Below, one piece after another: positions 1-49,840 of a stretch of 64,000 nucleotides of DNA (the first letter of the stretch is position 1; the number at the start of each line of letters is the position of its first letter). Source of the stretch: Apostichopus japonicus (taxonomy: Eukaryota; Echinodermata; Holothuroidea; Aspidochirotida; Stichopodidae); contig NC_092570.1 in the NCBI RefSeq assembly GCF_037975245.1, positions 1,679,501 to 1,743,500 on the forward strand. Reading direction: 5' to 3'. Made by a program: the position numbers and the translations under genes. The notes under the pieces were generated by a model. It was not told the origin of the DNA, made no database searches, and saw only the letters and a list, made by a program, of their open reading frames with translations.

Positions 1-1562
1 AAAACGTAAAGAAACTATTCAACTTTGCTGATAAACTCAACAGAGTGAATAATGATGTTCTGTCCATAGTCGCTGAAACTAAAGAAAAATGGAAATCACA
101 GTACGAAGATCAGACCAGGAAGTTACAGAATAAGAAAGAGGAAGAAAAGAGAGAATTCAACAGATTCAAAACAGTTCTTGAAGAAAGTATTCAACAGATC
201 ATGAAAGAATTGGAAACAGAAATGGAAGAGAAAATTAGAAAAATAAGAGACGAGTACGACAGAATGATTAAAATAAAAATAAGGGAATCAAAAGAGAAAG
301 AGGACACCAAAAGAAATGAAATCGAAAACAGAGAATTAAAGATTGACGAAACAATTAACCGACTTGATGCAGTCACGAATGAGAGCAATAAAACAATAGA
401 CGAACAACAGCAACGCAAGCTTAGAGAAACACAAAACTTATCAGATCTCTGTAATCAATGGGTCAATAAATTTGAAAATGTGTCTACTATATCTTCGAGT
501 GTCCTTGAATCATATAACCACTGGACAGACGCACAGTGCATTCCTGATATAAGAGCAGCGAGTGAACCTCTTGTTGAGGATATAACGAAAGATTTTCCTG
601 AAATAGAATCTTTATCTGATATAACAATGGATGATTTACCAATATTGCATATTGATAGAGTACATATGTCGGATCATGTAGACACTGTTGTGGATGTTGA
701 TGTGATCACAGCTGATCGTTTTTTTTTAACTGGTATAACAAGTACTGGCTCTGGTAATATTGTCATCTCTGGGAGATTATCACGTGACTATTCATTTATC
801 ACAGTCATAAACAGACAAGGACGTCAGATTCGTCATCACAAGATAGATAAAGGCAAAGGGAGCTCTTTTCAACACTTTCGCCACTGTGCTGCTTTATCAC
901 ATGATACGATAGCTTCGGTTTGTGAATCCAATCAGGTTGGTGTTTATAATATTCAAGATGGGTCCTTTACTCAAAATAACATCACGTCCCTCTTTGATGA
1001 CATCAAAACGGTGGATAGGAAGTATGCGACTTGTATAACTACTGATACTTTACGTGGCCACATCATTGTAGGTACACGGATTACTGGATTGCTATTTATA
1101 TTTGATGAAGAATTGAATTTCATTCGAGCTCTGAAGCTGCCAGAGGTTATAAAATTGTCAAGAGATATCCTTTATCATGAAGGAGTTCTGCTGATATGCG
1201 ATTTAGAGAGTGGATGTGCATGCGCTGTAACCTTGGATACATCTAAAACAGAAGCAGAGTTACTATACGAGCTTCCGAAACCAGATATTGACGGACGGAC
1301 TTGGTATCCTTCGAGTATATGTAAAGACAGGGCAGGTTTTGTATACATCTTGTGGTATGGTACTAACAGACGTATCATCACACAGTACAGTCAAGATGGT
1401 CAGCAGTTGTTGACAACCAAACGGACAGAATATCCAGCAGTATGTATGACAACATTGATGACAGAGAAGGGAGAGAAGCTACTTGTAGTTACAGCTACAC
1501 CATATCCAGGAAGGATGCTTTGTTATGGTCTGGTGAGTATATCTCAGTGTTTCTTATTTTAA
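1..1562 (+). CDS. TRIM/RBCC-NHL-like protein, copy 1 (5' end outside window, probable 2-nt deletion)
   Basis: This is the C-terminal two thirds of a TRIM-family E3 ubiquitin ligase. It holds most of the coiled coil (rich in K, E and R, to about base 430) and the complete six-bladed NHL-like propeller (about 710-1540), ending in TAA at 1560. The RING and B-boxes would lie left of the window. The frame is open from about base 3 and has no true ATG near its apparent beginning; GTG at 45 is an internal codon, not a start. Compared with copies 2-6, two bases (TG) are missing at about 15-17, so bases 1-15 are out of frame with the rest. The copy may therefore be a pseudogene or carry an assembly error, but the sequence upstream is not visible. 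The propeller has its own loop variants, such as YGTNRR where copy 2 has SQTQFSTGKC. Confidence 0.82.
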   Translation, partial: NVKKLFNFADKLNRVNNDVLSIVAETKEKWKSQYEDQTRKLQNKKEEEKREFNRFKTVLEESIQQIMKELETEMEEKIRKIRDEYDRMIKIKIRESKEKEDTKRNEIENRELKIDETINRLDAVTNESNKTIDEQQQRKLRETQNLSDLCNQWVNKFENVSTISSSVLESYNHWTDAQCIPDIRAASEPLVEDITKDFPEIESLSDITMDDLPILHIDRVHMSDHVDTVVDVDVITADRFFLTGITSTGSGNIVISGRLSRDYSFITVINRQGRQIRHHKIDKGKGSSFQHFRHCAALSHDTIASVCESNQVGVYNIQDGSFTQNNITSLFDDIKTVDRKYATCITTDTLRGHIIVGTRITGLLFIFDEELNFIRALKLPEVIKLSRDILYHEGVLLICDLESGCACAVTLDTSKTEAELLYELPKPDIDGRTWYPSSICKDRAGFVYILWYGTNRRIITQYSQDGQQLLTTKRTEYPAVCMTTLMTEKGEKLLVVTATPYPGRMLCYGLVSISQCFLF

Positions 1563-5938: not shown

Positions 5939-6243
5939 GTAAAGTGCACTAAGGGCATGGTGCGCTGTTGGTGGTATCGTTCCAGCACTATTAACGTCTG
6001 TCAGGTCGTATTTGTCATCCATCAGCTACGCCCGAACAGTTCCATTATGCCAGTGATCGAGTTGCACCAATATCTCGACTTCTGTGTTCATATGGGGCAA
6101 TAATACCCGTCATACCGTAGGTTACAAAGAACAGTTTTTGAATTCAGTTATTAAAGGTCTTTCTAAATTAAATTTCTTACACTCAATTTGTTACTCCAGA
6201 TTATGATATTCATAAACACTGATCTTAATAACTTTCCTCACAG

Positions 6244-6263
6244 ATTAAATTTCCGAGACAAAA
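6244..6263 (+). promoter_or_regulatory. Splice acceptor and 20-nt 5' UTR ahead of the TRIM coding exon (copy 2)
   Basis: The bases before 6244 read CTTTCCTCACAG, a pyrimidine-rich acceptor, followed by 20 bases and the ATG in the context ACAAAAATGGC. The same layout precedes copies 3-6 (acceptors CTTCACAG or GCTTTACAG). This supports one large coding exon with an upstream non-coding leader exon, and supports the chosen ATG. Confidence 0.6.
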
Positions 6264-8492
6264 ATGGCATGCCCATCGCCTTGGAAAGACATCGCAGATA
6301 CATTCTTCGAATGTTCAATTTGTTTGGATCTGTTTAAAGAACCGAAACTATTACCATGTCTGCATAGATTCTGTAAACAATGCCTGAAACCTATATTAGA
6401 AGGACAGGCTGGGACATTTGAATGTCCTCTTTGTAAAGATGTCTGTAAAATACCAAACGATAGAATCGATGGATTCAAGACTGACTTCCATATGAAAAGT
6501 ATGCTGCAGTTTATTCAGCTACAGAAAACATTTGAAAACAAAGAAGAGAGAGAATGTATTGGTTGTGAAGAGAAGTTAAAGGTTACAGCGTACTGTTTTA
6601 TATGTAAAGGATTTCTTTGTGTTCAGTGTTATCAATTTCATTTGACCAAGAAGATGTTTGTCACACATCAGAAACACTTATTAGCCTTGAATGATCTTGA
6701 GGGGAAAAGTCTCACGCAAGAAAAACTTGCATCATTGATGGAAGCTCCTAGGTGCCATATTCACCCGGAATATATGGCTCAGTTGTGCTGTTGTACATGC
6801 GGAAACCTCCCAGTTTGTGTGACATGTACGTATGATGAACACAAAGGTCATGAACTTCGTGACGTCAGGAAAGTGGCGAACGACGAAAGGGAACACTTGA
6901 AGGAGATATTGGAAGAACTTGTAAAACGTAAAGATACTGTATTCAACATTGCTGATAAAATCAACAGAGTGAATAATGACATTCTGTCCATTGTCGCTGA
7001 AACTAAAGCAAAATGGAAAAAGCAGTACAAAGATCAGACCAGGGAGTTACAGAATGAAAAAGAGAAAGAAAAGAGAGAATTCAACACATTCAAAACAGGT
7101 CTCGAAGAAAGTACTCGGCACAAAATGAAAGAATTAGAAACAGAAATGGAAGAGAAAATTAGAAAAATAAGAGACGAGTACGACAGATTGATTAAAATTA
7201 AAATTAGGGAATCAAAAGAGAAAGAGGACACCAAAAGAAATGAAATAGGAAAAAGAGAATTGAAGATTGACGAAACAATGAACCGACTTGATGCGGTAAT
7301 GAATGAGAGAAATAAAACAATAGACGAACAACAGCAACGCAAGCTTAGAGAAACACAAAACTTATCAGATCTCTGTAATCAATGGGTCAATAAATTTGAA
7401 AATGTGTCTACTATATCTTCGAGTGTCCTTGCATCATGTAACCACTGGACAGACGCACAGTGTATTCCTGATATAAGAGCAGCCAGTGAACCTCTTGTTG
7501 AGGATATAATGAAAGATTTTCCTGAAATAGAATCTTTATCTGATATAACAATGGATGATTTACCAATATTGTGTATTGATAGAGTACATATATCGGTTAA
7601 TGCAGAATCTGTTGTTGATGTTGATGTGATCAAATCTCGTTGGTTTTGGTTAACTGGTATAACAAGTACTGGCTCTGGTAACATCGTCATCTCTGGGAGA
7701 TTATCACATGCCCATTCATTTATCACAGTCATAAACAGACAAGGACGTCAGATTCGTCATAACAAGATAGATAAAGGCAAAGGGAGCTCTTTTCAAACCT
7801 TTCGTCACTGTGCTGCTTTATCACGTGATAATATAGCTTCGGTTTGTGAATCCAATCAGGTTGTTGTTTATAATATTCAAAATGGGTCCTTTACTCAAAA
7901 TAACATCACGTCCCTCTTTGATGACATCAATGCGGGGGATGCGAAGTATGCGACTTGTATAACTACTGATACTAAACGTGGCCACATCATTGTAGGTACA
8001 TCACGAAAGATTGGATTGCTATTTATATTTGATGAAGAATTTAATTTCATTCGAGCTCTGAAGCTACCAGAGGTTATAAAATGGTCAAGAGATATCCTTT
8101 ATCATGAAGGCGTTCTGCTGATATGCGATGAAGAGAGTAGATGTGCATACGCTGTAACCATGGATACATCTAAAACAGAAGCAGAGTTACTTTACAAGCT
8201 TCCGAAACCAGATATTGACGGACTAACTTGGTATCCTTCGAGTATATGTAAAGACAGGGCAGGTTTTGTATACATCTTGTGGTCACAAACACAGTTTAGT
8301 ACTGGAAAATGTATAATCACACAGTACAGTCAAGATGGTCAGCAGTTGTTGACAACCAAACGGACAGAAGATAGAGTACATTGTATGACAACATTGATGA
8401 CAGAGGAGGGAGAGAAGCTACTTGTAGCATCATGGTCAGGAAAGATGCTTTGTTATGGTCTGGTGAGTATATCTCAGTGTTTCTTATTTTAA
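6264..8492 (+). CDS. TRIM/RBCC-NHL-like E3 ubiquitin ligase, copy 2
   Basis: A 742-aa protein in one exon. The RING finger at residues 17-57 shows C17, C20, C32, H34, C37, C40, C54 and C57, the zinc ligands of a C3HC4 ring that binds an E2 enzyme. B-box 1 (about 98-138) starts C98xxC101, C111xxC114, C119xxC122. B-box 2 (about 164-196) is CxxH-C-C-C-C-H-H. A charged coiled coil runs from about 200 to 375. Residues 462-732 form six repeats of about 40 residues ending in GRQIR- or YNIQNG-like strands, as in the six-bladed NHL propeller of TRIM2/3/32/71. TRIM proteins of this kind ubiquitinate targets recognised by the propeller; many act in immunity or RNA control, but the substrate here is unknown. 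AATAAA lies at 8828. A 48-nt GT..AG segment crosses the stop codon (8463-8510). Confidence 0.95.
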   Translation: MACPSPWKDIADTFFECSICLDLFKEPKLLPCLHRFCKQCLKPILEGQAGTFECPLCKDVCKIPNDRIDGFKTDFHMKSMLQFIQLQKTFENKEERECIGCEEKLKVTAYCFICKGFLCVQCYQFHLTKKMFVTHQKHLLALNDLEGKSLTQEKLASLMEAPRCHIHPEYMAQLCCCTCGNLPVCVTCTYDEHKGHELRDVRKVANDEREHLKEILEELVKRKDTVFNIADKINRVNNDILSIVAETKAKWKKQYKDQTRELQNEKEKEKREFNTFKTGLEESTRHKMKELETEMEEKIRKIRDEYDRLIKIKIRESKEKEDTKRNEIGKRELKIDETMNRLDAVMNERNKTIDEQQQRKLRETQNLSDLCNQWVNKFENVSTISSSVLASCNHWTDAQCIPDIRAASEPLVEDIMKDFPEIESLSDITMDDLPILCIDRVHISVNAESVVDVDVIKSRWFWLTGITSTGSGNIVISGRLSHAHSFITVINRQGRQIRHNKIDKGKGSSFQTFRHCAALSRDNIASVCESNQVVVYNIQNGSFTQNNITSLFDDINAGDAKYATCITTDTKRGHIIVGTSRKIGLLFIFDEEFNFIRALKLPEVIKWSRDILYHEGVLLICDEESRCAYAVTMDTSKTEAELLYKLPKPDIDGLTWYPSSICKDRAGFVYILWSQTQFSTGKCIITQYSQDGQQLLTTKRTEDRVHCMTTLMTEEGEKLLVASWSGKMLCYGLVSISQCFLF

Positions 8493-21392: not shown

Positions 21393-23625
21393 ATGGCATG
21401 CCCATCGCCATGGAAGGACATCGCAGATACATTCTTCGAATGTTCAATTTGTTTGGATCTGTTTAAAGAACCGAAACTATTACCATGTCTGCATAGATTC
21501 TGTAAACAATGTCTGGAACCTATACTAGAAGGACAGGCTGGGACATTTGAATGTCCTCTTTGTAAAGATGTCTGTAAAATACCAAACGATAGAATCGATG
21601 GATTCAAGACTGACTTCCATATGAAAAGTATGCTGCAGTTTATTCAGCTACAGAAAACATTTGAAAACAAAGAAGAGAGAGAATGTATTGGCTGTGAAGA
21701 GAAGTTAAAGGTTACAGCGTACTGTTTTATGTGTAAAGAATTTCTTTGTGTTCAGTGTTATCAATTTCATTTGACCAAGAAGATGTTTGTCACACATCGG
21801 TTACACTTATTAGCCTTGAATGATCTTGAGGGCAAAAGTCTCACACAAGAAAAACTTGCATCATTGATGGAAGCTCCTAGGTGCCATATTCACCCGGAAC
21901 ATATGGCTCAGTTGTGTTGTTGTACATGCGGAAACCTCCCAGTTTGTGTGACATGTACGTATGATGAACACAAAGGTCATGAACTTCGTGACGTCAGGAA
22001 AGTGGCGAACGACGAAAGGGAACAGTTGAAGGAGATATTGGAAGAACTTGTAAAACGTAAAGATACCGTATTCAACTTTGCTGATAAAATCAAAAGAGTG
22101 AATAATGATGTTCTGTCCAGTGTCGCTGAAACTAAAGCAAAATGGAAATCACAGTACGAAGATCAGACCAGGGAGTTACAGAATGAGAAAGAGAAAGAAA
22201 AGAGAGAATTCAACAGATTCAAAGCAGTTCTTGAAGAAAGGACTCGAAAAGAGTTGAAAGAATTAGAAACAGAAATGGAAGAGAAAATTAGAAAAATAAG
22301 AGACGAGTACGACAGAATGAAGAAAATCAAAATTAGGGAATCAAAAGAGAAAGAGGACACCAAAAGAAATGAAACAGGAAAAAGAGAATTCAAGATTAAC
22401 GAAACAATGAACCGACTTGATGCGGTAATGAATCAGAGAAATAAAACAATAGACGAACAACAGCAACGCAAGCTTAGAGAAACACAAAACTTATCAGATC
22501 TCTGTAAACAATGGGTCAATAAATTTGAAAATTTGTCTACTATATCTTCGAGTGTCCTTGAATCATATAACCACTGGACAGACGCACAGTGTATTCCTGA
22601 TATAAGAGCAGCGAGTGAACCTCTGGTTGAGGATATAATGAAAGATTTTCCTGAAATAGAATCTTTATCTGATATAACAATGGATGATTTACCAATATTG
22701 TGTATTGATAGAGTACATATATCGGATAATGTAGAATCTGTTGTTGATGTTGATGTGATCAAAATCTGTTTGGTGTTCGTTAACTGGTATAACAAGTACT
22801 GGCTCTGGTAACATCGTCATCTCTGGGAGATTATCATTGGACCAATCATTTATCACAGTCACAAACAGACAAGGACGTCAGATTCGTCATAACAAGATAC
22901 ATAAAGGCAAAGGGAGGGATCTTCAACCCTCTCGTCACTGTGCTGCTTTATCACGTGATAAGATAGCTTCGGTTTGTGAATCAAATCAGGTTGTTGTTTA
23001 TAATATTCAAGATGGGTCCTTTACTCAAAATAACATCACGTCCCTCTTTGATGACATCAAAACTGTGGATAGAAAGTATGCGACTTGTATAACTACTGAT
23101 ACTTTACGTGGCCACATCATTGTAGGTACATCAAGAAATTCTGGATTGCTATTTATATTTGATGAAGAATTTCATTTCATTCGAGCTCTGAAGCTGCCAG
23201 AGGTTATAAAATGGTCGAGAGATATCCTTTATCATAAAGGCATTCTGCTGATATGCGATGAAAAGAGTAGATGTGCATACGCTGTAACCCTGGATACATC
23301 TAAAACAGAAGCAGAGTTACTATACGAGCTTCCGAAACCAGATATTGACGGACTGACTTGGTATCCTTCGAGTATATGTAAAGACAGGGCAGGTTTTGTA
23401 TACATCTTGTGGTCAGATAGACAGTTAGGTAGTGGAAACGATATGATCACACAGTACAGTCAAGATGGTCAGCAGTTGTTGACAACCAAACGGACAGAAG
23501 ATAGAGCAGGGTGTATGACAACATTGATGACAGAGGAGGGAGAGAAGCTACTTGTAGCTACATCATATGCAGGAAAGATGTTTTGTTATGGTCTGGTGAG
23601 TATATCTCAGTGTTTCTTATTTTAA
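21393..23625 (+). pseudogene. TRIM/RBCC-NHL-like copy 4, frameshifted before the propeller
   Basis: RING, B-boxes and coiled coil are intact, but one extra base relative to all sisters lies within 22761-22781 (after GATGTGATCAAA). The frame then ends at 22811, giving a 472-aa protein without the propeller. The remaining propeller is open in the other frame from 22837 to 23625. The candidate small leader exon upstream has also lost its acceptor (ACAA) and part of its donor (GTTAAG). A base-calling error in a long-read assembly is the main alternative. If real, the product would be a RING/B-box/coiled-coil protein that could still dimerise with full-length sisters. Copy 4 otherwise groups with copies 2 and 6 in loops such as SRCAYAV. 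Confidence 0.75.
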
Positions 23626-26600
23626 TATTACTATATATTACAGGATACTCTGATGTAACGACATTGAAAGGGTACATTAAACTGGGACAATATCGCCAAG
23701 GATATTATCTTAATGTATTGGCTTTATGTATGACCAAATAGTGTGCTATTTTAATAACTTTAAAGATAGTTTTCGATTAATTTTAGCTCAAGTAATAGTA
23801 GAAGTTATTTCCCAAAGCCAATATACATGAAACTAAAGTGAACAACTTGTTCACTATTACCTAAACGGATTCTTAAAACAGATTAAAGAATTCTAACGAG
23901 ATCATGGTATTGTTGTTGACAAGACTTCGCAATGCCAACTTAAGTTGATTTAAAAAATAAAACAGAAATAAATAAACAACAACAAAAACAGAAAAGTGAA
24001 CAGAATAGGCAAAAAGGAAAGAAGAAAAAACAAGAAAAGAACAGAAAAGAAGTGATTTGTTTGCTGAAAAACGTAACACAAATAATCTACAACTAACATG
24101 ACTTGTTTGAGCATTCTAAATGTACTTCAAACGTATCTAGAACTGGATCAACGTTTGTAACTTCATAAATGTTCTTTCCAACAGATGCCAGAATAAAGTC
24201 ATCCGCGAAAACATACATGAAAGAAACGAATATGCAGAGCATACACCACACTGAATCGAATATCAAGGGCAGCCGATGAGGAGAGAATAATAAATATTTG
24301 CAGAAACAACTAGAAACTTTGAGATGAAACGGATCCAATATCTTTATCTGATTAAATGAAGATACAGTTCCTGATTATTATCAACAGCCCCGACGAACAA
24401 TAGTAAAAAGAGATAAGTCTGCTTATGTCAGATGGTGGTCATATTGTGATTTTCTGATGTCATAATTCCACTATAACCACTTGTGATGTCACAATGCCAC
24501 TAAAAAGTGACGTCTTTCATGTTATATTTATTTATTAAATAAATGTATATGTAAATATAAGGACTGTAGTACTCGCGTCGGAGATCAAATTCCGTGAAAC
24601 TTAAAAATTCTATCCAAGGTGGTAAAATGAATTTATTGAAAGTATCACAACTATTTGTTTTATTGCAAGACCGTGTTAATTTTGTGTGTGTGCGTGTGAC
24701 GCCTTGCTAGTAAACACGATATCTCAAGAAGTGAAGCTTGGACAATCTAAAATTTCGTGTGTAGAAGAACCTCATGTAGGAGTAAGAGCCAATTATTTTG
24801 GTGAAGATCATATGTCATTTGAGGTCACCAGTGGTCAAATTTTGAACCCTTGTAAACACAATGTCCCAAGAAAAGAAACTTTGACCAATATCATATTTTC
24901 GTGTGTAGAAAGTAACACATTCAGTAGAATAAGCCTATTGGTTGTTGTGTACGTCAATGTCATTTGGGGTCACTAGGGGTCAAATAGTGAAACCATGTCA
25001 ACACGATATCTCTAGAAGAAAAGCTGGTACCAATCTCATATATAGTGTGAATGAGTAACACATTTATTAGAAGCAGCCTATTGTTTAGAGTGACGGTCAA
25101 AGTTCGTCTGGGTTCACTAGGGGTACAATTGTGAAAACCCCCATTAATTAACACGATATCTCAAGAAGTAGAGCTGGGACCAATCACATATTTTGTGTGA
25201 AGTACAACATTGAGTAGAAAAAGCCAATTGGTTTTTGTGGCGGTCAACGGTAATATGGAGTCACCAGAGGTCAAATTGTTGAAACCGTGTTTCATAATCT
25301 ACCGTATCTCCAACCGACCAGCCTATTAGATAACATGTGCGTTACGCCTCATAATAAAAGAGGTTGTTTGCAATTGAAAATTAGCAGATGGGCATCCGTA
25401 GATAGTACCAGAGAAAGTCGAACCAATCGCCATTTACTTAAACGTGTCGCTAACTGCATACGTCATTGCATTACAAAGGTGGGATGTTTGTTCATACAAC
25501 GTTCATTGGAATGAACTATACCGTTGTGAATTACATACCTGTATTAAATATTTGTTTCCGTTGTTGAAGTTTTCCCGTCGTGTTTCGCAATTGTTGAGAT
25601 TAAGTGCCAAATAAAAACTGAGTTGGAATGTAGTTACGTTGAGGAAACGACCAGGCGCCGTTTAGGAACTTAACTGTCGCCTAGTGTAAAATGGTTCGCT
25701 AGCTGCACGTGCATTATGTACGGGAAGTTTTCATGTTCGGAGATTGATCACAAACTTCACAGGACATTTATAAACATAAAGCGAAATCATCATTTAAAAT
25801 GTAAAATAACAATTCATTACAGGGAACAGTTTAAGCTTACGCAGTACGTAACGTGTTTCAAAGGCATTGATAAATACGCTGGGTTCATATGTTAAATCAT
25901 CAACCAATTAAAATATGTTATTAAACATCACCACGGCTAGGTTATGCACAGGCAACACCTACACAGAAGATTATAGTACTAGCCGCCCCGGTATAGACTA
26001 TAAACATTGGTCATCCTCACCTGAGTAGGGTAAAATTGTGTTCGTTAACACAAACACGTGAAGAAAAAAATGCTTCATGTCAGAATACCAATTCACTTGA
26101 GGCGGCCAAACATCTCCTACACTATTTCTTCAGGCATTTCCTACATGCCATCAGTCATAATTCGCCAAATATAAAATTAAAGGAGATTTCAGACAAGACA
26201 GTTTGCTGTTACCATTGCCATGATTTTTTGTAAAGATTTTCAGTTGCGATTGAAAGATAGATTCTCTTTCAACCTTAGATTTTCATTGTGAAAAAGATCG
26301 CTTTGATTTAGGCAGTGTAATGGAGTAATATCAATGTTTTCGAACACCAATAAGCAGTTTAAGCCAAGATAAATAATTGGGAAAATCACCGAAGTCGCGC
26401 GAATCGAAGAAGCGGTTTATAGTAGGAGTGGGGTACTGTATAGGCTTAGGACTCGTGCACACCTTTATAGCTACTGTATATGGTATATGTTTAGTACTAG
26501 AGGATTCCTAATGTTGCAGAAGCCAAGCTATCGTCGTAGGTATTTTTGAAAATGATTTATTTTTAATTGTTTGAGACACTTTACAGTAGGCCAAGCTGTA

Positions 26601-28352
26601 TATTTATGATTCTGCGACATGTTTAACTTTGTTCAGCACTTACTTTTGGTGGAAAAAATATTTAAAGTTCACACTGCATAGAAACATAATATTTCAATGT
26701 GCGCGTACGTAACACCATATATCTGCCTACGTGCCTAATCTGTAGTTCATAGAAAGTATCAATGTTGTAGATCTGTACTATGGAGACTTGAACAACAGTC
26801 ATAGTGGCGAGTGGAATTTGCGTTTTGGCGAGGAGAGTTTTAGTCACTTTCGCCAAATAACTAGTACTTTAAAAAGCATTTCAGTATCGAGGCCTGACAA
26901 AACTTTAAAACATGATTTCTCATAATATAAATCATGGATATTTTTCATACATGGTATATGGATTTGCCATATTATTTTTTATTTATATTATTATTTTTTA
27001 TTTTTATTATTATTATTATTATCATCGTTATTATCAGTAGTAGCTTTGAATTGTGTGTAAAGTTTGGGCACGTGTACGCACGGAATGTAGAAATAGGGCT
27101 CTGCACTAATGCACCGTTAAACAAGTTACGGGAGGGTGTAAGGTAATTGCTCAATACATTGACACCCAAATCAGCAACTGGGGATTTCCATTATTATCGC
27201 GTGGTTTTGGAATTGCATCGGTCCTTTGTGTCTCGTCTATTGTATTTTCAACAACTGGATAAAGTAGGATTCAAGTAGTTATGATATTTCAACTTGTGTT
27301 GTAAATATTCTGTTCTGCGATTGGTCTCTGTGTTCAATGTATGAAGGAAGGTGCACGGCCATTTTAACCCGGAAGTATTGAATGGTGCATGATTGGTTAT
27401 AAAACTGAAGTACAGTGGATTATTACGAGATTACCGGAGCTTTCCTGCTCGTAGCAAATGCATGGCATTAAGGACTTGTTAAGGACTTTAGAAATGGAAG
27501 TTTTCGCAATGTTTACTTTTGATATAATATACCAACCATATCAGTTCTGCGTGGATGTTCTCGTGATATCAAATGTCAAACTCAATTGTATAAGTTCTGT
27601 GCGTTATATCTATTGTACATATACGTACAACGTACTGCGCATATTCTCATGTATTTCCTTCTTGGTCCGATTCGTAACAGATTCGTAACCATTCGTGCTG
27701 CTAGGCTGATACACGACTAAGGGAAAAGGTAAACATTAAAATAAGGTAAGTCTTGAAATGTAAAACGGTGATAATTTCAAACATGTTTCCTTAGTTCATT
27801 TGTATTTTGTTATATCATTAAGTGGGAAATAATATAACCAACTTAGTACATTGGTGATTAGTATTATCGTTAAGCTTGTATATCAATTGCCATCGGTAGT
27901 ACTAGGGCTAAAAAGTCCTAACAGAACAGATATTGAGATCATTGACATGATACCGAATTCACTAAACCCCAGAGTTACTGACTGTTTGTGTAAACTTCAA
28001 ATCATCATGTATTGTCATTACAGGTCAACTAGTTCTTTTATCAAGGTAAAGTGCACTTAGGGCATGGTGCGCTGCTGGTGGTATCGTTCCAGCACTATAA
28101 ACGTCTATAAGGTCGTATTTGTCATCAGCTACGCCCGAACGTTTCCTTTATGCCAGTGATCGAGTTGCACCAATATCTCGATTTCTGTGTTTATATGGGA
28201 CAATAATACCCGTCATACAGTAGGTTACAATGAACAGTTTTTGAATTCAGTTCATTAAAGGTTTTTCTAAATTAATTTTCTTACACTTAATTTGTTACTC
28301 CAGATTATGATATTCATAAACTTGCTTTACAGCTTAAATTTCCGAAACAAAA
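23626..28352. other. Inter-gene part of unit 4
   Basis: Shortest inter-gene region. The minisatellite has four monomers (24640-25300, key positions 24715, 24857, 25002 and 25152). About 900 bp present in unit 3 are missing at about 26974, joining GGATTTGCCATATT directly to an ATT tract (26968-27045). GTTCAATG at 27332-27339 is the empty site for the 32-bp palindrome. No gene is seen. Confidence 0.7.
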
Positions 28353-30575
28353 ATGGCATGCCCTTCTCCTTGGAAAGACATCGCAGATACATTCTTCGAA
28401 TGTTCAATTTGTTTGGATCTGTTTAAAGAACCGAAACTCTTACCATGTCTGCATAGATTCTGTAAACAATGTCTGGAACCTATACTAGAAGAACAGGCTG
28501 ATGGGACATTTGAATGTCCTCTTTGTAAAGATGTCTGTAAAATACCAAACGATAGAATCGATGGATTCAAGACTGACTTCCATATGAAAAGTATGCTGCA
28601 GTTTATTCAGCTACAGAAAACATTTGAAAACAAAGAAGAGAGAGAATGTATTGGCTGTGAAGAGAAGTTAAAGGTTACAGCGTACTGTTTTATGTGTAAA
28701 GAATTCCTTTGTGTTCAGTGTTATCAATTTCATTTGACCAAGAAGATATTTGTCAAACATCAGAAACACGTATTAGCTCTGAATGATCTTGAGGGGAAAA
28801 GTCTCACAAAAGAAAAACTTGCATCATTGATGGAAGCTCCTAGGTGCCATATTCACCCCGAACACAAGGCTAAGTTGTGTTGTTGTACTTGTGGAAACCT
28901 CCCAGTCTGTTTGACATGTACGTATGATGAACACAAAGGTCATGAACTTCGTGACGTCAGAAAAGTGGCGAACGACGAAAGAGAACACTTGAAGGAGATA
29001 TTGGAAGAACTTGTAAAACGTAAAGATGCTGTATTCAATTTTGCTGATAAAATCAAAAGAGTGAATAATGACGTTCTGTCCATTGTCGCTGAAACTAAAG
29101 CAAAATGGAAATCACAGTACGAAGATCAGACCAGGAAGTTACAGAATAAGAAAGAGGAAGAAAAGAGAGAATTCGACAGATTCAAAACAGGTCTTGAAGA
29201 AAGTACTCAACAGATCATGAAAGAATTAGAAACAGAAATGGAAGAGAAAATTAGAAAAATAAGAGACGAGTACGACAGATTGAAGAAAATCAAAATAAGG
29301 GAATCAAAAGAGGAAGAGGACAACAAAAGAAATGAAATAGAAAATAGAGAATTAAAGATTGACGAAACAATTAACCGACTTGATGCAGAAATGAATGAGA
29401 GAAATAAAACAATAGACGAACAACAGCAACGCAAGCTTAGAGAAACACAAAACTTATCAAATCTCTGTAATCAATGGGTCAATAAATTTGAAAATGTGTC
29501 TACTTTATCTTCGAGTGTCCTTGAATCATATAACCACTGGACAGACGCACAGTGTATTCCTGATATAAGAGCAGCGAGTGAACTTTTGGTTGAGGATATA
29601 ATGAAAGATTTTCCTGAAAAAGAATCTTTCTCTGATATAACAATTGATGATTTACCAATATTGTGTATTGATAGAGTACATATATCGGATAATGTAGAAT
29701 CTGTTGTTCATGTTGATGTGATCAAAGCTAAATGGTTTTGGTTAACTGGTATAACAAGTACTGGCTCTGGTAACATCGTCATCTCTGGAAGATTATCATC
29801 TGACCATTCATTTATCACAGTCATAAACAAACAAGGACGTCAGATTCGTCATAACAAGATAGATAAAGTTAAAGGGCGCTCTCTTCAACACTTTCGTCAC
29901 TGTGCTGCTTTATCACGTGATAAGATAGCTTCGGTTTGTGAATCCAACCAGGTTGTTGTTTATAATACTCAAGATGGGTCCTTCACTCAAAATAACATCA
30001 CGTCCCTCTTTGATGACATCAAAACAGTGGATAGAAAGTATGCGACTTGTATAACTACTGATACTTTACGTGGCCACATCATTGTAGGTACAAATAGAAA
30101 TACTGGATTGGTATTTATATTTGATGAAGAATTGAATTTCATTCGAGGTCTGAAGCTACCAGAGGTTATAAAATGGTCAAGAGATATCCTTTATCATAAA
30201 GGCGTTCTGCTGATATGCGATTCAGAGAGTAGATGTGCATGCGCTGTAACCATGGATACATCTAAAACAGAAGCAGAGTTACTATACGAGCTTCCGGAAC
30301 CAGATATTGACGGACTGACTTGGTGTCCTTACAGTATATGTGCAGACAGGGCAGGATATGTCTACATCTTGTGGCATAGTGCTGGAACAAAGTGTATCAT
30401 CACACAGTACAGTCAAGATGGTCAGCAGTTGTTGACAACCAAACGGACAGAATGTACAGCACGGTGTATGACAACATTGATGACAGAGGAGGGAGAGAAG
30501 CTACTTGTAGCATCATGGTCAGGAAAGATGCTTTGTTATGGTCTGGTGAGTTTATCTCAGTGTTTCTTATTTTAA
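28353..30575 (+). CDS. TRIM/RBCC-NHL-like E3 ubiquitin ligase, copy 5
   Basis: A 740-aa intact paralogue. The RING has one extra residue (EEQADGTFEC instead of EGQAGTFEC) between its sixth and seventh zinc ligands. B-box 2 reads HKAKLCCCTC with CLTC instead of CVTC; all zinc ligands are kept. The propeller loop after YILW is three residues shorter than in copy 2 (HSAGTKC), and GTNRNTG replaces GTSRKIG. The start is set by the family context ACAAAAATGGC after an acceptor GCTTTACAG. The 48-nt GT..AG segment over the stop codon lies at 30546-30593. Confidence 0.95.
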   Translation: MACPSPWKDIADTFFECSICLDLFKEPKLLPCLHRFCKQCLEPILEEQADGTFECPLCKDVCKIPNDRIDGFKTDFHMKSMLQFIQLQKTFENKEERECIGCEEKLKVTAYCFMCKEFLCVQCYQFHLTKKIFVKHQKHVLALNDLEGKSLTKEKLASLMEAPRCHIHPEHKAKLCCCTCGNLPVCLTCTYDEHKGHELRDVRKVANDEREHLKEILEELVKRKDAVFNFADKIKRVNNDVLSIVAETKAKWKSQYEDQTRKLQNKKEEEKREFDRFKTGLEESTQQIMKELETEMEEKIRKIRDEYDRLKKIKIRESKEEEDNKRNEIENRELKIDETINRLDAEMNERNKTIDEQQQRKLRETQNLSNLCNQWVNKFENVSTLSSSVLESYNHWTDAQCIPDIRAASELLVEDIMKDFPEKESFSDITIDDLPILCIDRVHISDNVESVVHVDVIKAKWFWLTGITSTGSGNIVISGRLSSDHSFITVINKQGRQIRHNKIDKVKGRSLQHFRHCAALSRDKIASVCESNQVVVYNTQDGSFTQNNITSLFDDIKTVDRKYATCITTDTLRGHIIVGTNRNTGLVFIFDEELNFIRGLKLPEVIKWSRDILYHKGVLLICDSESRCACAVTMDTSKTEAELLYELPEPDIDGLTWCPYSICADRAGYVYILWHSAGTKCIITQYSQDGQQLLTTKRTECTARCMTTLMTEEGEKLLVASWSGKMLCYGLVSLSQCFLF

Positions 30576-33500
30576 TATTACTAGATATTACAGGATAATC
30601 TGGTGTAACGAAATTGAAAGGGTACATTATACTGGGACAATATCGCCAATATCTTAATGTATTGACTTTATGTATGACCAAATAGTGTGCTATATTAATA
30701 ACTTTAAAGATAGTTTGCGATTGACTTTAGCTCAAGTAATAGTAGAAGTTAATTCCTAAACCCAATATACATGAAACTAAAGTGCACATCTTGTTCACTA
30801 TTTCCTATACGGAATCGCAAAAGAATTCTAACGAGATCATGGTATTGTTGTTGACAAGACATCGCAATGCCAACTTAAGTTGATTTAAAAGAAATAAAAC
30901 AACAACAAAAACAGAAATGTGAACAGAATATAGGCAAAAGGGAAAAAGAAAAGCCAAGAAAAGAACAGAAAAGAACTTAAAGAAGGGATTTGTTTGCTGA
31001 AAAACGTAACAAAAACAATCTACATCCAACATAACCTTTTTTAGCATTCTCAATGTACTTCAAACGTGTAGAGAATTGGATCAACGTTTGTAACTTTATA
31101 AATGTTCTTTCCAACAGATGCCAGAATAAAGTCAACCGCGAAAACATACATGGAAGAAACGAACATCCAGAGCATACATTACACTGAATCGAATATCAAG
31201 GGCAGCCGATGAGGAGAGAATAAGCAATATTTGCAGAAACAACTAGAAACTTTAAGATGAAACGGATCCAGTATCTTATGAAATGAAGATACAGTTCCTG
31301 ATGATTATCAACAGCCCCGACGAACAATAGTAATAAGAAATAAGACTGTTTATATAAGATGGTGGTTATATTGTGATTCTCTGATGTCATAATCCCACTA
31401 TAACCAATGTGTGATGTCACAATGCTACTAAAGAGTGACGTCTTTCATGTTATTGTAATTATATTTATTGAATAAATGTATATGTAAATATTAGGACTGT
31501 AGTACTCGCGTCGGAGATCAAATTCCATAAAACTAAAAAATTCTATCCAAGATGTAAAAATGAATTAATTGAAAGTATCACAACTATTTGTTTTATTGCA
31601 AGACCGTGTTTATTTTGTGTGTGCGTGTGACGCCTTGCTTATAAACACGATATCTCAAGAATTGAAGCTTGGACTATCTCAAATTTCGTGTGTAGGAGAA
31701 CCTCCATTTAGGAGTAAGAGCCAATTATTTTTGGTGGAGGTCATATGTCATTTGAGGTCACCGGTGGTCAAATTGTGAATCCTTGTAAACACGATATCCC
31801 AAGAAAAGAAGCTTTGATCAATATCATATTTCGTGTGTATAGAGTAACACATGCAGTAGAATAAGCCTATTGGTTGTTGTGAACGTCAAATGTCATTTGG
31901 GGTCAATAAGGGTCAAATAGTGAAACCCTTTAGACACGATATCTCAAGAAGAAAAGCTTGTACCAATCTCATATATAGTGTGAATGAGAACAACATTGAT
32001 TAAAAGCAGCCTATTGTTTAGAGTGGCGGTCAAAGTTCGTTTGGGTTCACTATAGGGGTACAATTGTGAAAACCCGGGTAAACACGATATCTCAAGACGG
32101 AGAGCTGGGACCAATCACATATTTCGTGTGAAGTACAAAATTGAGTAGAAGAAGCCAATTAGTTTTGTGGCGGTCAAAGGAAATTTGGAGTCACCAGATG
32201 TCAAATTTTTGAAACCGTGTTTCATAATCTACCGTATCTCCAACCGACCAGCCTATTAGATAACATATGCGTTACGTCTCATCATAAAAGAGGTTGTTTG
32301 TAATTGAAAAATAGCTAATGAGAAAGTCGAACCAATCGCCATTTACTTAACCGTGTCGCTAACTGCATACGTCTTGCATTACAAAGGTGTGAAAGGGAAA
32401 AAATGCTTCATGTCAGAATACCAATTCACCTGAGGTGGCCAAACATCTCCTACATTATTTCTTCAGGCATTTGCATTTGCCATCAGTCATAATTCGCCAA
32501 ATATACAATTAAAGGAGTTTTGAGACAAGTTTGCTGTATACCACTGCCATGATTTTTTGCAAAGATTTTCAGTTGCGATTGAAAGATAGATGCTCTTTCA
32601 ACCTTAGATTTTCATTGTGTAAAAGATCGCTTTGATTTAGGCAGTGTAATGGAGTAATATCAATATTTTTGCACACCAATATGCAGCTTAATCCATCATA
32701 AATAATTGGGAAAATCTTCGAAGTCGCGCCAATCGAAGATGTGGTTCATAGTAAGAGTGAGGTACTGTATAGGCTTAGGACTTGCGCACACCTATAACTA
32801 CTGTATATAGCGTATGTTTAGTACTAGACGATCCCTAATGTAACAGAAGCCAAGCTATCGTCGTAGGTACTTTTGAAAATGGTTTATTTTTAATTGTTTG
32901 AGACACTACAGTAGCCAAGCTGCGTGTTTATGATTCTCCGACATTTTTAACTTTGTTCAACACTTACTTTTGGCGAAAAAAAATATTTAAAGTTCACACT
33001 GCATAGAAACATAATTTTCCAATGTGCGAGTACGTAACACCATATATCTGCCTAGGTGCCTAATCTGTAGTTCATAGAAAGTATTAATGTTGTAGATCTG
33101 TACTATGGAGACTTGAACAACAGTCATAGTGGCGAGTGAATTTTTCGTTTTGGCGAGAAGAGTTTTAGTCACGTTCGCCAAATAACTAGTACTTTAAAAA
33201 ACATTTCAGTATCGAAGCCTGACAAACCTTTAAAACATGATTTCTCATAATATAAATCATGGATAATTTTCATACATGGTATATGGATTTGGCATATTGA
33301 GTACAAGAATCTTGTTGCCAAATCATAATTGTCAAATCTCAATTGCGGTCACCAGACGTCAAACTTTGAAAACCATTCACATGATATCTAACGATGGGAA
33401 TCGTGGATATTTCTCATACTTAGCGTGTGGATGCATCACATTGAGTACCACTATTTGTCTTGGTGGACGAGTGTAATGCCACGTACAGAAAACTGGTCTG

Positions 33501-35646
33501 TGTTTTGCCTTGCCATAGTGTAAATTGTTCATCAAAGAAGTGGTTCGGACTATTTATATTGTGATAGCTATTTCTGTTTAACAAGTAGAAGTCTAGTGCA
33601 ATGAAGTCATCGAAACCTCAATGCATTTTGAATTCCGGTTATTATTATTTTTATTTTTATAATAATAATAAGCATAATTATGATTATGATTATTATTATT
33701 TTTAATATGAATAACCTCTGCTTATCAAATACCTTACTGTTACATTTATGTAGTAGCATAGACAATCTCTGATGTTTTACGCTGTTTTATTCCTCACTGT
33801 GCTTTGTTTTACTTGTGTGGGGGTGTTTATGTTCGTACTAACGTGTTTGTATGCGTGTGTGTCTCTGTATTTGTATGTGTGTAGGTGTGTGTGTGGGTCT
33901 TTGTATGTGTATGTATATGTACTATTTTGCGCGTGTGCAAGCGTGGGTTTTGTATTCACTGAGGGTTTGTTTTTCTGGATGTGTATCAAATATTTCGGTA
34001 TAAGAGGAGAAGAAGAAATACTCAATTCAGAATCAATTTTCGCATCATGTAAATAATTCCTTTGTATCATTCAGATGCATACCTATGTTGTTATCGGAAC
34101 TCTAAATATAATCAATGTACCATATACATGTTTAATAATCGTGAATAAATCAGATGGAAAAAATATTATTATTATTATTTTTTTTGAATACTATTTTTTA
34201 TCATGATTATTATTTCATTTTTATGATTATTATTATATATTTTTATTATTATTATTATTAGAAGTAGTAGTATTGTCGGAATGTAGAAAAATAGCTCTGC
34301 ACTAAAGCACCATTAAACAAGTTACGGGAGGGTGTAAGGTAATTGCTCAATACATTGACACCCAAATCAGCAACTGGGGATTTCCATTACTATCGCGACT
34401 TGCATCGGTACTTTGCGTCTCGTCTGTTGTATTTCAACAACTGGATAAAGTAGGATTGAAGTTATTCTGATATTTCAACTTGAATTACAATAAGGCCTCA
34501 ATACTCCATCGACTGGAAGCAAATAGCACAAGGTTAGAACTATTCTGTTCTGCGATCGGTCTCTGTGTTCAATGCACTGATCTGTACACTAGTGTACAGA
34601 TCAGTGGTTCAATGTATGAAGGAAGGTGCACGGCCATTTTAACCCGGAAGTATTGAATGGTGCATGATTGGTTATAACACTGAAGTACAGTGGATAATTA
34701 CGGTATTAACCACCAGCTTTTCTGCTCGTAGCAAATACATGGACTTGTTAAGGAATTGTTAAGGACTTTAGTAATGGTAGTTTTCGCAATGTTTACTTGT
34801 GATATAATATACCAACCATATCAGTTCTGCGTGGGTGTTCTCGTGATATCAAAGTCCAAACTCAATTGTATAAGTTCCGTGCATTATATCCATTGTACAT
34901 ATACGTACAACTTACTGCGTATATTCTCATGTTGTTCCTTCTTGGTCCGATTTGTAACAACTTAAGAAAGATCAAATGCAGCTAGGCTGATACAAGACTA
35001 AGGGAAAAGGTAAACATTAAAATAAGGTAAGTCTTGGAATGTAAAACGGTGATAATTGCAAACATGTTTCCTTAGTTCATCTGTATTTTGTTATATCATT
35101 AAGTGGGAAATAATATAACCAACTTACATTGGTGATTAGTATCATCGTTAAGCTTGTATATCAATTGCCATTGGTAGTGCTAGGGCTCAAAAAGTCCTAA
35201 CAGAACAGATATCGAGATCATTGCCATGATATCGAATTCATTAAACCCCAGAGTTACTGACTGTTTGAGTAAACTTCAAATGATCATGTATTGTCATTTC
35301 AGGTCAACTAGTTCTTGTATCAAGGTAAAGTTCACTAAGGGCATGGTGTGCTGTTGGTGGTATCGTTCCAGCACTATAAACGTCTATCAGGTAGTATTTG
35401 TCATCAGCTACGCCCGAACAGTTCCATTATGCCAGTGATCGAGTTGCACCAATATCTCGGCTTCTGTGTTTGTATGGAGCAATAATACCCGTCGTACCGT
35501 AGGTTACAAAGAACAGTTCTTGAATTCAGTTCAATAAAGGTCTTTCTAAATTAATTTTCTTATCCTCAATTTGTTACTCCAGATTATGATATTCATAAAC
35601 ACTGATCTTAATAACTTGCTTTACAGCTTAAATTTCCGAGACAAAA
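30576..35646. other. Inter-gene part of unit 5
   Basis: Standard layout with a four-monomer minisatellite (31580-32220). About 550 bp found in units 2-4 are missing at about 32391, where ACAAAGGTGTGA joins AAGGGAAAAAATGCTTC. ATT tracts lie at 33638-33712 and 34162-34270, a GT-rich stretch at 33800-33920, and the palindromic insertion at 34567-34614. No gene is supported. Confidence 0.7.
34567..34614. mobile_element. 32-bp perfect palindrome with perfect 8-bp target-site duplication (unit 5)
   Basis: The same palindrome as in unit 2 (half-site CACTGATCTGTACACT) occupies 34575-34606. It is flanked on both sides by GTTCAATG (34567-34574 and 34607-34614). Comparison with the empty site in unit 4 defines the insertion to the base. 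Confidence 0.82.
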
Positions 35647-37875
35647 ATGGCCTGCCCGTCGCCTTGGAAAGACATGGCAGATACATTCTTCGAATGTTCA
35701 ATTTGTTTGGATCTGTTTAAAGAACCGAAACTATTACCATGTCTGCATAGATTCTGTAAACAATGTCTGGAACCTATATTAGAAGGACAGGCTGGAACAT
35801 TTGAATGTCCTCTTTGTAAAGATGTCTGTAAAATACCAAACGATAGAATCGATGGATTCAAGACTGACTTCCATATGAAAAGTATGCTGCAGTTTGTTCA
35901 GCTACAGAAAACATTTGAAAACAATGAAGAGAGAGAATGTATTGGCTGTGAAGAGGAGTTAAAGGTTACAGCGTACTGTTTTATGTGTAAAGAATTTCTT
36001 TGTGTTCAGTGTTATCAATTTCATTTGACCAAGAAGATATTTGTCAAACATCAGAAACACGTATTAGCTCTGAATGATCTTGAGGGGAAAAGTCTCACAC
36101 AAGAAAAACTTGCATCATTGATGGAAGCTCCTAGGTGCCATATTCACCCGGAACACATGGCTCAGTTGTGTTGTTGTACATGCGGAAACCTCCCAGTTTG
36201 TGTGACATGTACGTATGAGGAACACAAAGGTCATGAACTTCGTGACGTCAGGAAAGTGGCGAACGACGAAAGGGAACACTTGAAGGAGATATTGGAAGAA
36301 CTTGTAAAACGTAAAGATACTGTATACAACATTGCTGATAAACTCAACAGAGTTAATAATGACGTTCTGTCCATTGTCGCTGAAACTAAAGTAAAATGGA
36401 AATCACAGTACGAAGATCAGACCAGGAAGTTACAGAATGAGAAAGAGAAAGAAAAGAGAGAATTCAACAGATTCAAAACAGGTCTTGAAGAAAGTACTCG
36501 AAACAAAATGAAAGAATTAGAAACAGAAATGGAAGAGAAAATTAGAAAAATAAGAGACGAGTACGACAGAATGAAGAAAATCAAAGTTAGGGAATCTAAA
36601 GAGAAAGAGGACACCAAACGAAATGAAATAGAAAATAGAGAATTAAAGATTGACGAAACAATGAAAAAACTTGATGCGGTAATGAATGAGAGAAATAAAT
36701 CAATAGACGAGCAACAGCAACGCAAGCTTAGAGAAACACAAAACTTATCAGATCTTTGTAATCAATGGGTCAATAAATTTGAAAATTTGTCTACTATATC
36801 TTCGAGTGTCCTTGAATCATATAACCACTGGACAGACGCACAGTGTATTCCTGATATAAGAGCAGCGAGTGAACCTCTTGTTGAGGATATAATGAAAGAT
36901 TTTCCAGAAATAGAATCTTTATCTGATATAACAATGGATGATTTACCAATATTGTCTATTGATAAAGTACATATATCGGATAATGTAGAATCTGTTGTTG
37001 ATGCTGATGTGATCAGAGATAAATGGTTTTGGTTATCTGGTATAACAAGTACTGGCTCTGGTAACATCGTCATTTCTGGGAGATTATCATTTGACCATTC
37101 ATTCATCACAGTCATAAACAAACAAGGACGTCAGATTAGTCATAACAAGATAGATGAAGGCAAACGGATTCGTCTTCCCTTTCGTCACTGTGCTGCTTTA
37201 TCACGTGATAAGATAGCTTCGGTTTGTGAATCCAATCAGCTTGGTGTTTATGATATTCGTGATGGGTCCTTTACTCAAAATAACATCACGTCCCTCTTTG
37301 ATGACTTCGAAACGGTGGATGGGAAGTATGCGACTTGTATAACTACTGATCCAATAAGTGGCAACATCATTGTAGGTACATCACGAAAGATTGGATTGCT
37401 ATTTACATTTGATGAAGACTTGAATTTCATTCGAGCTCTGAAGCTGCCAGAGGTTATAAAATGGTCAAGAGATATCCTTTACCATGAAGGCGTTCTGCTG
37501 ATATGCGATACAGAGAGTAGATGTGCATACGCTGTTACCATTGATATATCTAAAACAGAAGTAGAGTTACTATACGAGCTTCCGAAACCAGATATTGACG
37601 GACTGACTTGGTATCCTTGGAGTATATGTAAAGACAGGGCAGGCTTTGTATACATCTTGTGGTCAGAAGAACAGGGTAGTACTACTAAACGTATCATCAC
37701 ACAGTACAGTCAAGATGGTCAGCAGTTGTTGACAACCAAACGGACAGAAGACAGAGTAAGGTGTATGACAACATTGATGACAAAGGAGGGAGAGAAGCTA
37801 CTTGTAGCTACATCGTGGTCAGGAAAGATGTTTTGTTATGGTCTGGTGAGTATATCTCAGTGTTTCTTATTTTAA
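35647..37875 (+). CDS. TRIM/RBCC-NHL-like E3 ubiquitin ligase, copy 6 (last of the array)
   Basis: A 742-aa intact paralogue with RING, two B-boxes, coiled coil and propeller as in copy 2. It is the most divergent in the propeller: WLSGITS, DEGKRIRLPFRHC, NQLGVYDIRDG, FETVDGKYATC, and TDPISGNI where others read TDTxRGHI. B-box 1 has CEEELK instead of CEEKLK. The 48-nt GT..AG segment over the stop is present. It follows the same leader layout (acceptor GCTTTACAG). The 3' flank carries deletions shared with unit 5, pointing to a common recent ancestor for the inter-gene DNA. Confidence 0.95.
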   Translation: MACPSPWKDMADTFFECSICLDLFKEPKLLPCLHRFCKQCLEPILEGQAGTFECPLCKDVCKIPNDRIDGFKTDFHMKSMLQFVQLQKTFENNEERECIGCEEELKVTAYCFMCKEFLCVQCYQFHLTKKIFVKHQKHVLALNDLEGKSLTQEKLASLMEAPRCHIHPEHMAQLCCCTCGNLPVCVTCTYEEHKGHELRDVRKVANDEREHLKEILEELVKRKDTVYNIADKLNRVNNDVLSIVAETKVKWKSQYEDQTRKLQNEKEKEKREFNRFKTGLEESTRNKMKELETEMEEKIRKIRDEYDRMKKIKVRESKEKEDTKRNEIENRELKIDETMKKLDAVMNERNKSIDEQQQRKLRETQNLSDLCNQWVNKFENLSTISSSVLESYNHWTDAQCIPDIRAASEPLVEDIMKDFPEIESLSDITMDDLPILSIDKVHISDNVESVVDADVIRDKWFWLSGITSTGSGNIVISGRLSFDHSFITVINKQGRQISHNKIDEGKRIRLPFRHCAALSRDKIASVCESNQLGVYDIRDGSFTQNNITSLFDDFETVDGKYATCITTDPISGNIIVGTSRKIGLLFTFDEDLNFIRALKLPEVIKWSRDILYHEGVLLICDTESRCAYAVTIDISKTEVELLYELPKPDIDGLTWYPWSICKDRAGFVYILWSEEQGSTTKRIITQYSQDGQQLLTTKRTEDRVRCMTTLMTKEGEKLLVATSWSGKMFCYGLVSISQCFLF

Positions 37876-49314: not shown

Positions 49315-49623
49315 CCCAAAGTCAGAAAGAGAAATTTGTTGCTCTTGGGGAAGTCGCTGAAATGAATTGTGTGTTCGAGTTCGTCTATTCGGACTTCCTT
49401 ATTTTATGGAAATGGAACAATTCTGAGATGTTGAGTCACCGATATGATGAATCCGTCATAAAAACAGATGGCAAGCGTATCTTTACAATATGGTCAAATG
49501 GAAGAACTGCTCGTTTGAAAGTCACGAATTTTACCCTCCAAGATGTTGGACAATATTCTTGCTACAAGAGATATCTTTTCTCAGGAAAACCAGAAATGTG
49601 TGAATGGTTGATCAATGCTCAAG
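49315..49623 (+). CDS. Immunoglobulin V-like domain exon
   Basis: Bounded by an acceptor (ACACGGTAG) and a donor (CAAG|GTATGT). It is 309 bp long and phase 1-1, the usual symmetry of Ig-domain exons. It encodes GEVAEMNC (B-strand Cys), LWKWNN (C-strand Trp), RTARLKVTNFTL (D/E strands) and DVGQYSCY (F-strand D-x-G-x-Y-x-C), then GKPEMCEWLINAQ, where the extra Cys could bond elsewhere. The protein is probably a secreted or membrane Ig-superfamily member starting with the exon at 48997. Further exons could not be identified, and the next 2 kb hold a retroelement. Confidence 0.75.
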
Positions 49624-49840
49624 GTATGTTACAAACTGTCACAAGTAGCTCAGTTTGATAATTACGACATCCGAGGACTTTTTCAATGTAATTTAAGCTC
49701 TTAACCTTATGCCTCATGTGTTATTTCCTTTAAGGTGGTCCGCAAATTGTTCATGTCTCATCCGAATGACAAAACGAAATCGCATCAGCAGAGTGCTGCC
49801 TTCAATCGACAGATGCTCATATCGCTTCTTAATTAATTTC

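Follow-up and report, generated by a model that had tools for sequence, protein, structure and literature searches.

Do the tandem RING/B-box genes of the sea cucumber Apostichopus japonicus carry a recognition surface that has been diversified in the germline, coupled to a constant ubiquitin ligase? The question was raised by a preliminary description of the 64,000-nucleotide stretch analysed here (C10:1679501-1743500, hereafter the window), which placed variable segments of a C-terminal propeller at window positions 7632-8441, and it was followed up in the 671.6-Mb genome assembly of 35 contigs. Those coordinates are correct, corresponding to codons 457-726 of the second copy (c2), and the loop strings quoted from the copies (SQTQFSTGK, SDRQLGSGN, HSAGTK, SEEQGSTTK) are present. 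Our preferred reading, to which we give a probability of about 0.6, is that one face of the propeller is a varied recognition surface on a constant RING/B-box effector, with targets that are non-self or rapidly changing; the figure is a joint one for the whole explanation, including that the gene products are of TRIM type (RING/B-box/coiled-coil) and end in a six-bladed propeller that structural models predict to be NHL-like.

The tandem array comprises 14 copies, from C10:1620273 to 1717372, and extends beyond the window. Nine copies are intact; the other five (u2, u4, u6, c1 and c4) are broken by frameshifts or a stop and are omitted from every count given below for nine copies.

Variable propeller loops beside a conserved zinc region

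Differences among the copies are indeed clustered in short propeller segments: mean amino-acid heterozygosity in the nine intact copies is 0.409 in the segments listed by the preliminary description vs 0.100 in the rest of the propeller. No circular shift of the segment mask (0 of 305) reaches the observed value, which rules out chance clustering of the variation, and the observed autocorrelation is reached in none of 2000 shuffles. The listed segments are real, but the list had left out a variable loop at residues 480-485, and the statement that they recur once per blade is approximate only, there being nine variable segments over six blades, with B-C loops variable in five of the six (blade 2 excepted) and several D-A loops in addition. 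Likewise, the RING/B-box scaffold hardly changes but is not invariant as had been proposed, since 6 of 64 RING columns and 24 of 146 columns of the B-box region vary in the nine copies; the count for the coiled-coil region is 66 of 185. This coiled-coil-like region (residues 211-395) is fairly variable, with a cluster near residues 283-290.

Positive selection on loop codons

The ratio of non-synonymous to synonymous divergence (omega), obtained by counting over the nine intact copies, is 0.10 for the RING, 0.25 for the B-box region, 0.61 for the coiled-coil region and 1.05 for the propeller. Codon models were fitted with custom code rather than PAML, checked only by 12 null simulations and with naive empirical Bayes posteriors; in the rate and site models, the relative branch lengths were those of M0 throughout. 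For the propeller, twice the log-likelihood difference (2dlnL) between M7 and M8 is 172.6 with all 14 copies (omega 7.4 on 14% of sites) and 119.9 with the nine intact ones (omega 9.3 on 11% of sites), and the 12 data sets simulated under M7 give at most 3.2. Site classes with omega above 1 thus uphold the suggestion of diversification at these positions. No selection was found by the same comparison in the RING plus B-box (2dlnL 0), and the coiled-coil region gives a non-significant result (2dlnL 4.4, p 0.11), with one site, 310, at a posterior above 0.9.

Three possible artefacts were considered and rejected. Inflation of the test by near-identical copies is discounted because seven non-redundant intact copies still give 122.0. 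Misalignment near indels is discounted because the signal survives the loss of 31 of 306 columns (those at most two from a gap), with 2dlnL 89.5. Recombination alone is rejected as the source of the signal by regional trees and a star tree: with a separate tree for each of five propeller regions, omega is 1.9 (p 0.017) for nine copies and 2.3 (p 0.0007) for 14, and star trees with the local rate freed give p 3e-5 and 4e-9, respectively. When the local rate, synonymous change included, is freed on the single trees, the fast class retains an omega of 2.5-3.0 (p 1.3e-4 for 14 copies, 4.2e-4 for nine).

Selected sites on one predicted face

Strand order was taken from the first of two AlphaFold2 models of the propeller, in which the D-A and B-C loops form one face and the A-B and C-D loops the other. 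In the 14-copy set, 27 of the 29 sites with a posterior above 0.9 lie at most two residues from D-A or B-C loops only, the remaining two being residue 571, on the other face, and residue 659, in a strand. The D-A/B-C zone takes up 130 of 285 residues, and none of 284 circular shifts matches this count; in the nine-copy set 20 of 21 selected sites fall in the zone, and one shift in 284 does as well. Mean heterozygosity is 0.215 in D-A loops, 0.370 in B-C loops, 0.143 in A-B loops, 0.122 in C-D loops and 0.104 in strands. The conjecture that the variable segments lie on one face of the propeller is therefore borne out in the predicted structure.

What is known of NHL domains is chiefly their role in binding RNA within regulators of development (PMC5908797, PMC9070667), and a different use of the variable face has to be weighed. 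Published work on Mei-P26 puts the sixth sheet at residues 1178-1202; the protein's longest loop (1169-1175) was removed in a test of RNA binding, and binding was lost in the triple mutant R1150A/K1172A/R1175A. Because loop 1169-1175 stands just before the sixth sheet, it would be expected to form the D-A link of blades 5-6 and so to be the counterpart of residues 701-706 here; if so, judged by topology, the variable face would coincide with the one through which known NHL domains bind RNA. It is conceivable, if unlikely, that the face serves for RNA binding, like that of Brat, Mei-P26 and LIN41, and that the copies came to bind different RNAs, endogenous or selfish ones (transposons, germline mRNAs), with pathogen recognition playing no part. 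The best fold matches are RNA-binding NHL domains and each of the 14 copies has loops of positive net charge (+1 to +8), which would suit RNA as would the presumed Mei-P26 equivalence; however, no RNA-binding residues can be aligned, at an identity of about 13-18% to the listed known NHL domains, and the loops hold 5-11 acidic residues beside 10-14 basic ones.

Domain architecture and TRIM membership

The genes have the two hallmarks of TRIM (RBCC) proteins that were looked for at the N-terminus, a C3HC4 RING and one or two B-boxes. PF00643 stretches number two each in c3, c5 and c6 and one in c2, with scores over the cut-off for c3 (25.5 bits) and c6 (28.2), just under it for c2 and under it for c5 (20.2); in a genome-wide search the B-boxes of c2, c3 and c6 matched over the cut-off. 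With its Cys/His residues intact, the zinc region is that of a putative E3 ubiquitin ligase. The six-bladed propeller closed by an N-terminal strand, as in TRIM-NHL proteins (class VII, subfamily C), appears in the predicted models, of which the second has a closing strand of only one residue. The two models reach predicted template-modelling scores of 0.73 and 0.74, and their best PDB matches are NHL domains.

At the level of sequence profiles, Pfam has no NHL match (E <= 1) for five copies of the window or for three relatives, two of the relatives having a weak, sub-cut-off match to WD40/CDC20. A six-copy profile run against PDB sequences retrieved no NHL domain, only weak matches, mostly to RNase A (E 0.004 and worse), which we take as chance. 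In the five window copies the Pfam scan found neither a B30.2/SPRY domain nor a filamin domain. The protein is of a cytosolic type, and no signal peptide or membrane segment was seen by eye in the translation; such a RING/B-box protein is unlikely to be a surface receptor, which speaks against the idea that the diversification serves conflict over reproduction or self-recognition (gamete, allorecognition) and not immunity. Loop-focused positive selection is familiar, as general knowledge, from tandem gamete and allorecognition genes, and we nonetheless regard this explanation as very improbable.

A sister array on contig C2

An independent set is provided by an array of ten loci on contig C2 (25.37-25.63 Mb), the full ones being 32-33% identical to copy c2. 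Nine of the ten loci were tested, three of them partial, with L025 omitted as its open frame ends within the propeller. The propeller gives an M7-M8 2dlnL of 17.3 (p 1.7e-4), and the N-terminal omega is 0.35 (six full copies). Loop heterozygosity is 0.157 for D-A and 0.246 for B-C, vs 0.079 for A-B, 0.094 for C-D and 0.102 for strands. The array shares the pattern of the main one in a milder form.

Recombination and the origin of the diversity

Loop types recur across otherwise different copies, a nearly identical 674-683 loop being found in u1, u7 and c4 although u1 is otherwise nearest to c2. A PHI-type test detects recombination (p 0.0005 for 14 copies, 0.0055 for nine). At either end the coding sequences of u5 and c1 are 0.4-2% apart, but their divergence rises to 6-11% in windows with midpoints at residues 291-541, a pattern suggestive of a conversion-like tract. 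The epithet germline-diversified, used in the preliminary description, fits such paralogue differences and conversion in an assembled genome.

On a larger scale, a 14-kb block of two units (from the end of u2 to the end of u4; L013-L015, C10:1629188-1643435) is repeated between the ends of c4 and c6 (window about 23700-38000), with a divergence of mostly 0-1% and sharp borders at gene ends. Either unequal crossing-over took place here recently, or one haplotype entered the assembly twice (an assembly haplotig). Heterozygosity in A. japonicus is given as about 0.73% and termed an underestimate in the part of PMC5638244 available. When the twin copies are dropped, the selection result is unchanged.

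Selection, local rate and relaxed constraint

Several observations weigh against a reading built on positive selection of one propeller face. Plain counting in the listed segments gives an omega of 1.33 with an interval of 0.86-2.08, weaker than the site-class result on the same question. By heterozygosity alone the contrast between faces is modest, 18 of 284 shifts equalling it, and in the array on contig C2 9 of 12 sites with a posterior above 0.8 are no more than two residues away from D-A or B-C loops, in a looser count that also keeps sites near other loops. Mean predicted local distance difference test (pLDDT) values of the two propeller models are 65 and 69, with three of the nine variable loops at least partly below 50. 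Five of the 14 copies are broken. The overall codon rate of the fast class is 2.6-3.4 times that of the rest (5.2 and 3.3 times with regional trees), and the raised synonymous change in loop codons is unexplained by plain positive selection. Under regional trees, the nine copies are fitted better by a fast-but-neutral class (log-likelihood -2616.7) than by selection without rate change (-2621.2), and with 14 copies the two tie; the combined model is best in both sets. On single trees, the selected class alone outfits the fast-but-neutral one in all four fits.

The points on rate would be expected if local hypermutation or very short conversion tracts sped up synonymous and non-synonymous loop change alike, with little selection. 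In the nine intact copies dS is 0.259 in the listed segments vs 0.062 in the rest of the propeller (dN 0.344 and 0.055), and two- or three-base differences make up 414 of 989 differing codon pairs in the loops vs 137 of 1178 elsewhere. Nevertheless, omega stays above 1 with rate and omega both free, and fourfold sites at conserved residues at most five codons from the loops are not raised (mean heterozygosity 0.058 over 23 sites vs 0.104 over 58 sites in residues 1-440), and we consider a process with so little selection improbable. Our tentative reading of these data is that loop alleles changed in short blocks, by exchange or mutation, and that selection acted on them afterwards.

A further explanation, that constraint on the loops is relaxed in decaying duplicates and that recombination inflates the test, would draw on the broken copies and on the detectable recombination. 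It is already largely refuted and has only a very small chance of being correct: the nine intact copies yield the signal by themselves, regional trees retain it, and the RING is constrained. Moreover, the non-coding flanks of the same copies, used as a neutral yardstick, differ by 0.081 (3') and 0.068 (5'), so that loop dN is more than four times the yardstick, which relaxation cannot give; pure relaxed constraint is rejected on this ground.

Proposed mechanism and comparison with known systems

Under the preferred reading of a varied face on a constant effector, the RING/B-box half would be held constant and the propeller loops of one face would be diversified in the germline, by unequal crossing-over, by gene conversion that reshuffles loop cassettes and by positive selection on substitutions and small indels. 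Each copy would then most likely present a different binding face to a microbial or viral protein or RNA, and the shared RING would ubiquitinate the target or signal from it. The data show the array, the constant zinc region, the positive selection, the predicted location on one face and the mosaic make-up of the copies; ligand binding, ligase activity and an immune role are our inferences, as are the recognition surface and the constant ubiquitin ligase already named in the preliminary description, whose overall interpretation is partly supported. Because synonymous and non-synonymous change are both raised in the loops of this face, a loop-focused process may be proposed, and with it a more far-reaching and doubtful idea: that an invertebrate NHL propeller became a germline-diversified immune module, in which arrayed single-exon TRIM genes, loop-focused micro-conversion or mutation, and selection would yield an E3 repertoire with different target faces.

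Brat, Mei-P26, TRIM2/3, TRIM71/LIN41 and TRIM56 are conserved, low-copy developmental or signalling genes, and the ligand of TRIM5alpha is the retroviral capsid. The five window copies scanned differ from these TRIM-NHL proteins in giving neither a Pfam NHL match nor a filamin match. The logic of the proposed mechanism would be that of TRIM5alpha and the fish finTRIMs, on an NHL-like propeller in place of B30.2. As far as the accessible text of PMC2657112 goes, hypervariable TRIM recognition loops are documented on B30.2 domains in primates and fish. The teleost finTRIM (ftr) genes described there are likewise a lineage-specific expanded TRIM family with recombination, and their C-terminal domain is positively selected (M1a/M2a, M7/M8) at sites in variable loops, with a share of selected sites of 15.6-17.6% vs 11-14% here; an expanded family with positively selected C-terminal loops is what we find as well. 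In contrast, the finTRIM domain is B30.2 rather than an NHL propeller, the animals are fish rather than echinoderms, and the few selected sites just upstream of the finTRIM RING were not found in the array. Primate TRIM5alpha, in the same source, shares the plan in which RING, B-box and coiled coil are constant and diversifying selection acts on hypervariable loops at the C-terminus, but its domain is B30.2 and the comparison there is between species, not between tandem copies. The plan is thus known from finTRIM and TRIM5alpha, and the fold that carries the variable loops differs here.

Among the matches listed in a search of open-access literature, with most subscription papers outside it, none reported this family or diversifying selection acting on an NHL face. 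In the accessible parts of sea cucumber genome papers, PMC5638244 included, the word tripartite is absent and the displayed matches to trim refer to alignment trimming, two in PMC5638244 not being displayed; the portion of PMC13245067 available has nothing on the propeller face. Should an NHL face be under strong diversifying selection, the plan of constant ligase and variable sensor would have evolved on a different fold in an animal that lacks antibodies, and the exact residues and nine natural variants are available for binding tests.

Array and genomic setting

The array was surveyed by tblastn with c2 after extending the DNA by 100 kb upstream and 50 kb downstream of the window, and no further c2-like copy was found beyond it in the stretches read; a 5-kb run of N upstream leaves its left end uncertain. 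Copy starts are 4.5 to 11.4 kb apart, about 7 kb in most cases, and within the window whole units, non-coding DNA included, give long matches of mostly 87-93% identity, with some poorer stretches. The coding part of the array genes is one open frame. A pyrimidine-rich, splice-acceptor-like ACAG motif precedes the ATG of c2 (window about 6224-6263) and, likewise, those of u1 and u3, in the three copies viewed, which suggests a possible 5' untranslated region intron upstream of the coding exon. Features of the window copies are collected in Table 1.

Table 1. Array copies in the window, and domains and variable loops of copy c2 (window positions; selected sites by c2 residue).
Feature	Residues	Position	Strand	Remarks
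c1 (3' part)		1..1562	+	starts upstream of window; frameshift near residue 226, at window start
c2, intact	742 aa	6264..8492	+	single open frame: RING, B-box region, coiled-coil-like region, NHL-like propeller
c2 RING finger	16-58	6309..6437	+	Pfam PF00097 E 1.4e-10; every Cys/His invariant
c2 first B-box-like Cys/His cluster	98-138	6555..6677	+	Cys/His invariant
c2 B-box	161-199	6744..6860	+	PF00643 23.8 bits (cut-off 24.1)
c2 coiled-coil-like region	211-395	6894..7448	+	Glu/Lys-rich by eye, not tool-predicted
c2 six-bladed NHL-like beta-propeller (predicted)	452-736	7617..8471	+	
Variable loop, D-A link, blades 6 and 1	457-462	7632..7649	+	selected 459, 460, 462
Variable loop, B-C, blade 1	480-485	7701..7718	+	selected 482
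Variable loop, D-A link, blades 1-2	504-513	7773..7802	+	selected 505, 508-513
Variable loop, D-A link, blades 2-3	556-561	7929..7946	+	selected 560
Variable loop, B-C, blade 3	580-584	8001..8015	+	selected 583
Variable loop, B-C, blade 4	622-627	8127..8144	+	selected 623
Most variable loop, B-C, blade 5	674-684	8283..8315	+	length changes; selected 674-681, 683
Variable loop, D-A link, blades 5-6	701-706	8364..8381	+	selected 706 (nine-copy set: 704, 706)
Variable loop, B-C, blade 6	722-727	8427..8444	+	selected 723, 724
c3, intact	741 aa	13871..16096	+	
c4		21393..23625	+	frameshifted between 22764 and 22779, two open pieces
c5, intact	740 aa	28353..30575	+	propeller indistinguishable from upstream copy u3 (zero-length branches)
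c6, intact	742 aa	35647..37875	+	

Across the genome, where 150 of 477 candidates were scored, B-box matches number at least 136, with some genes yielding two, and all 20 loci fetched match c2. Further RING/B-box gene clusters with long open frames lie on contigs C2, C3, C9, C16, C17 and others (L025-L050 among them). The array on contig C3 (six loci, only three with long open frames) and the four genes L040-L043 on contig C9, which match c2 mainly over residues 1-279, were kept outside the analysis.

Three other open frames in the window bear mention. The frame at 43553-44509 (-) contains repeat units of the GYSPFMF-GKR type and related amidated-peptide units and looks like a SALMFamide-type neuropeptide precursor of the kind known from sea cucumbers; Pfam gives no match in it. 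The frame at 50285-51688 (-) combines a reverse transcriptase (PF00078, E 4.8e-11) with a GIY-YIG domain (PF01541, E 6.8e-5) and is presumably a fragment of a Penelope-like retroelement. A short frame at 49362-49658 (+) has a weak likeness, under Pfam cut-offs, to an immunoglobulin domain and is perhaps a single exon of a receptor gene.
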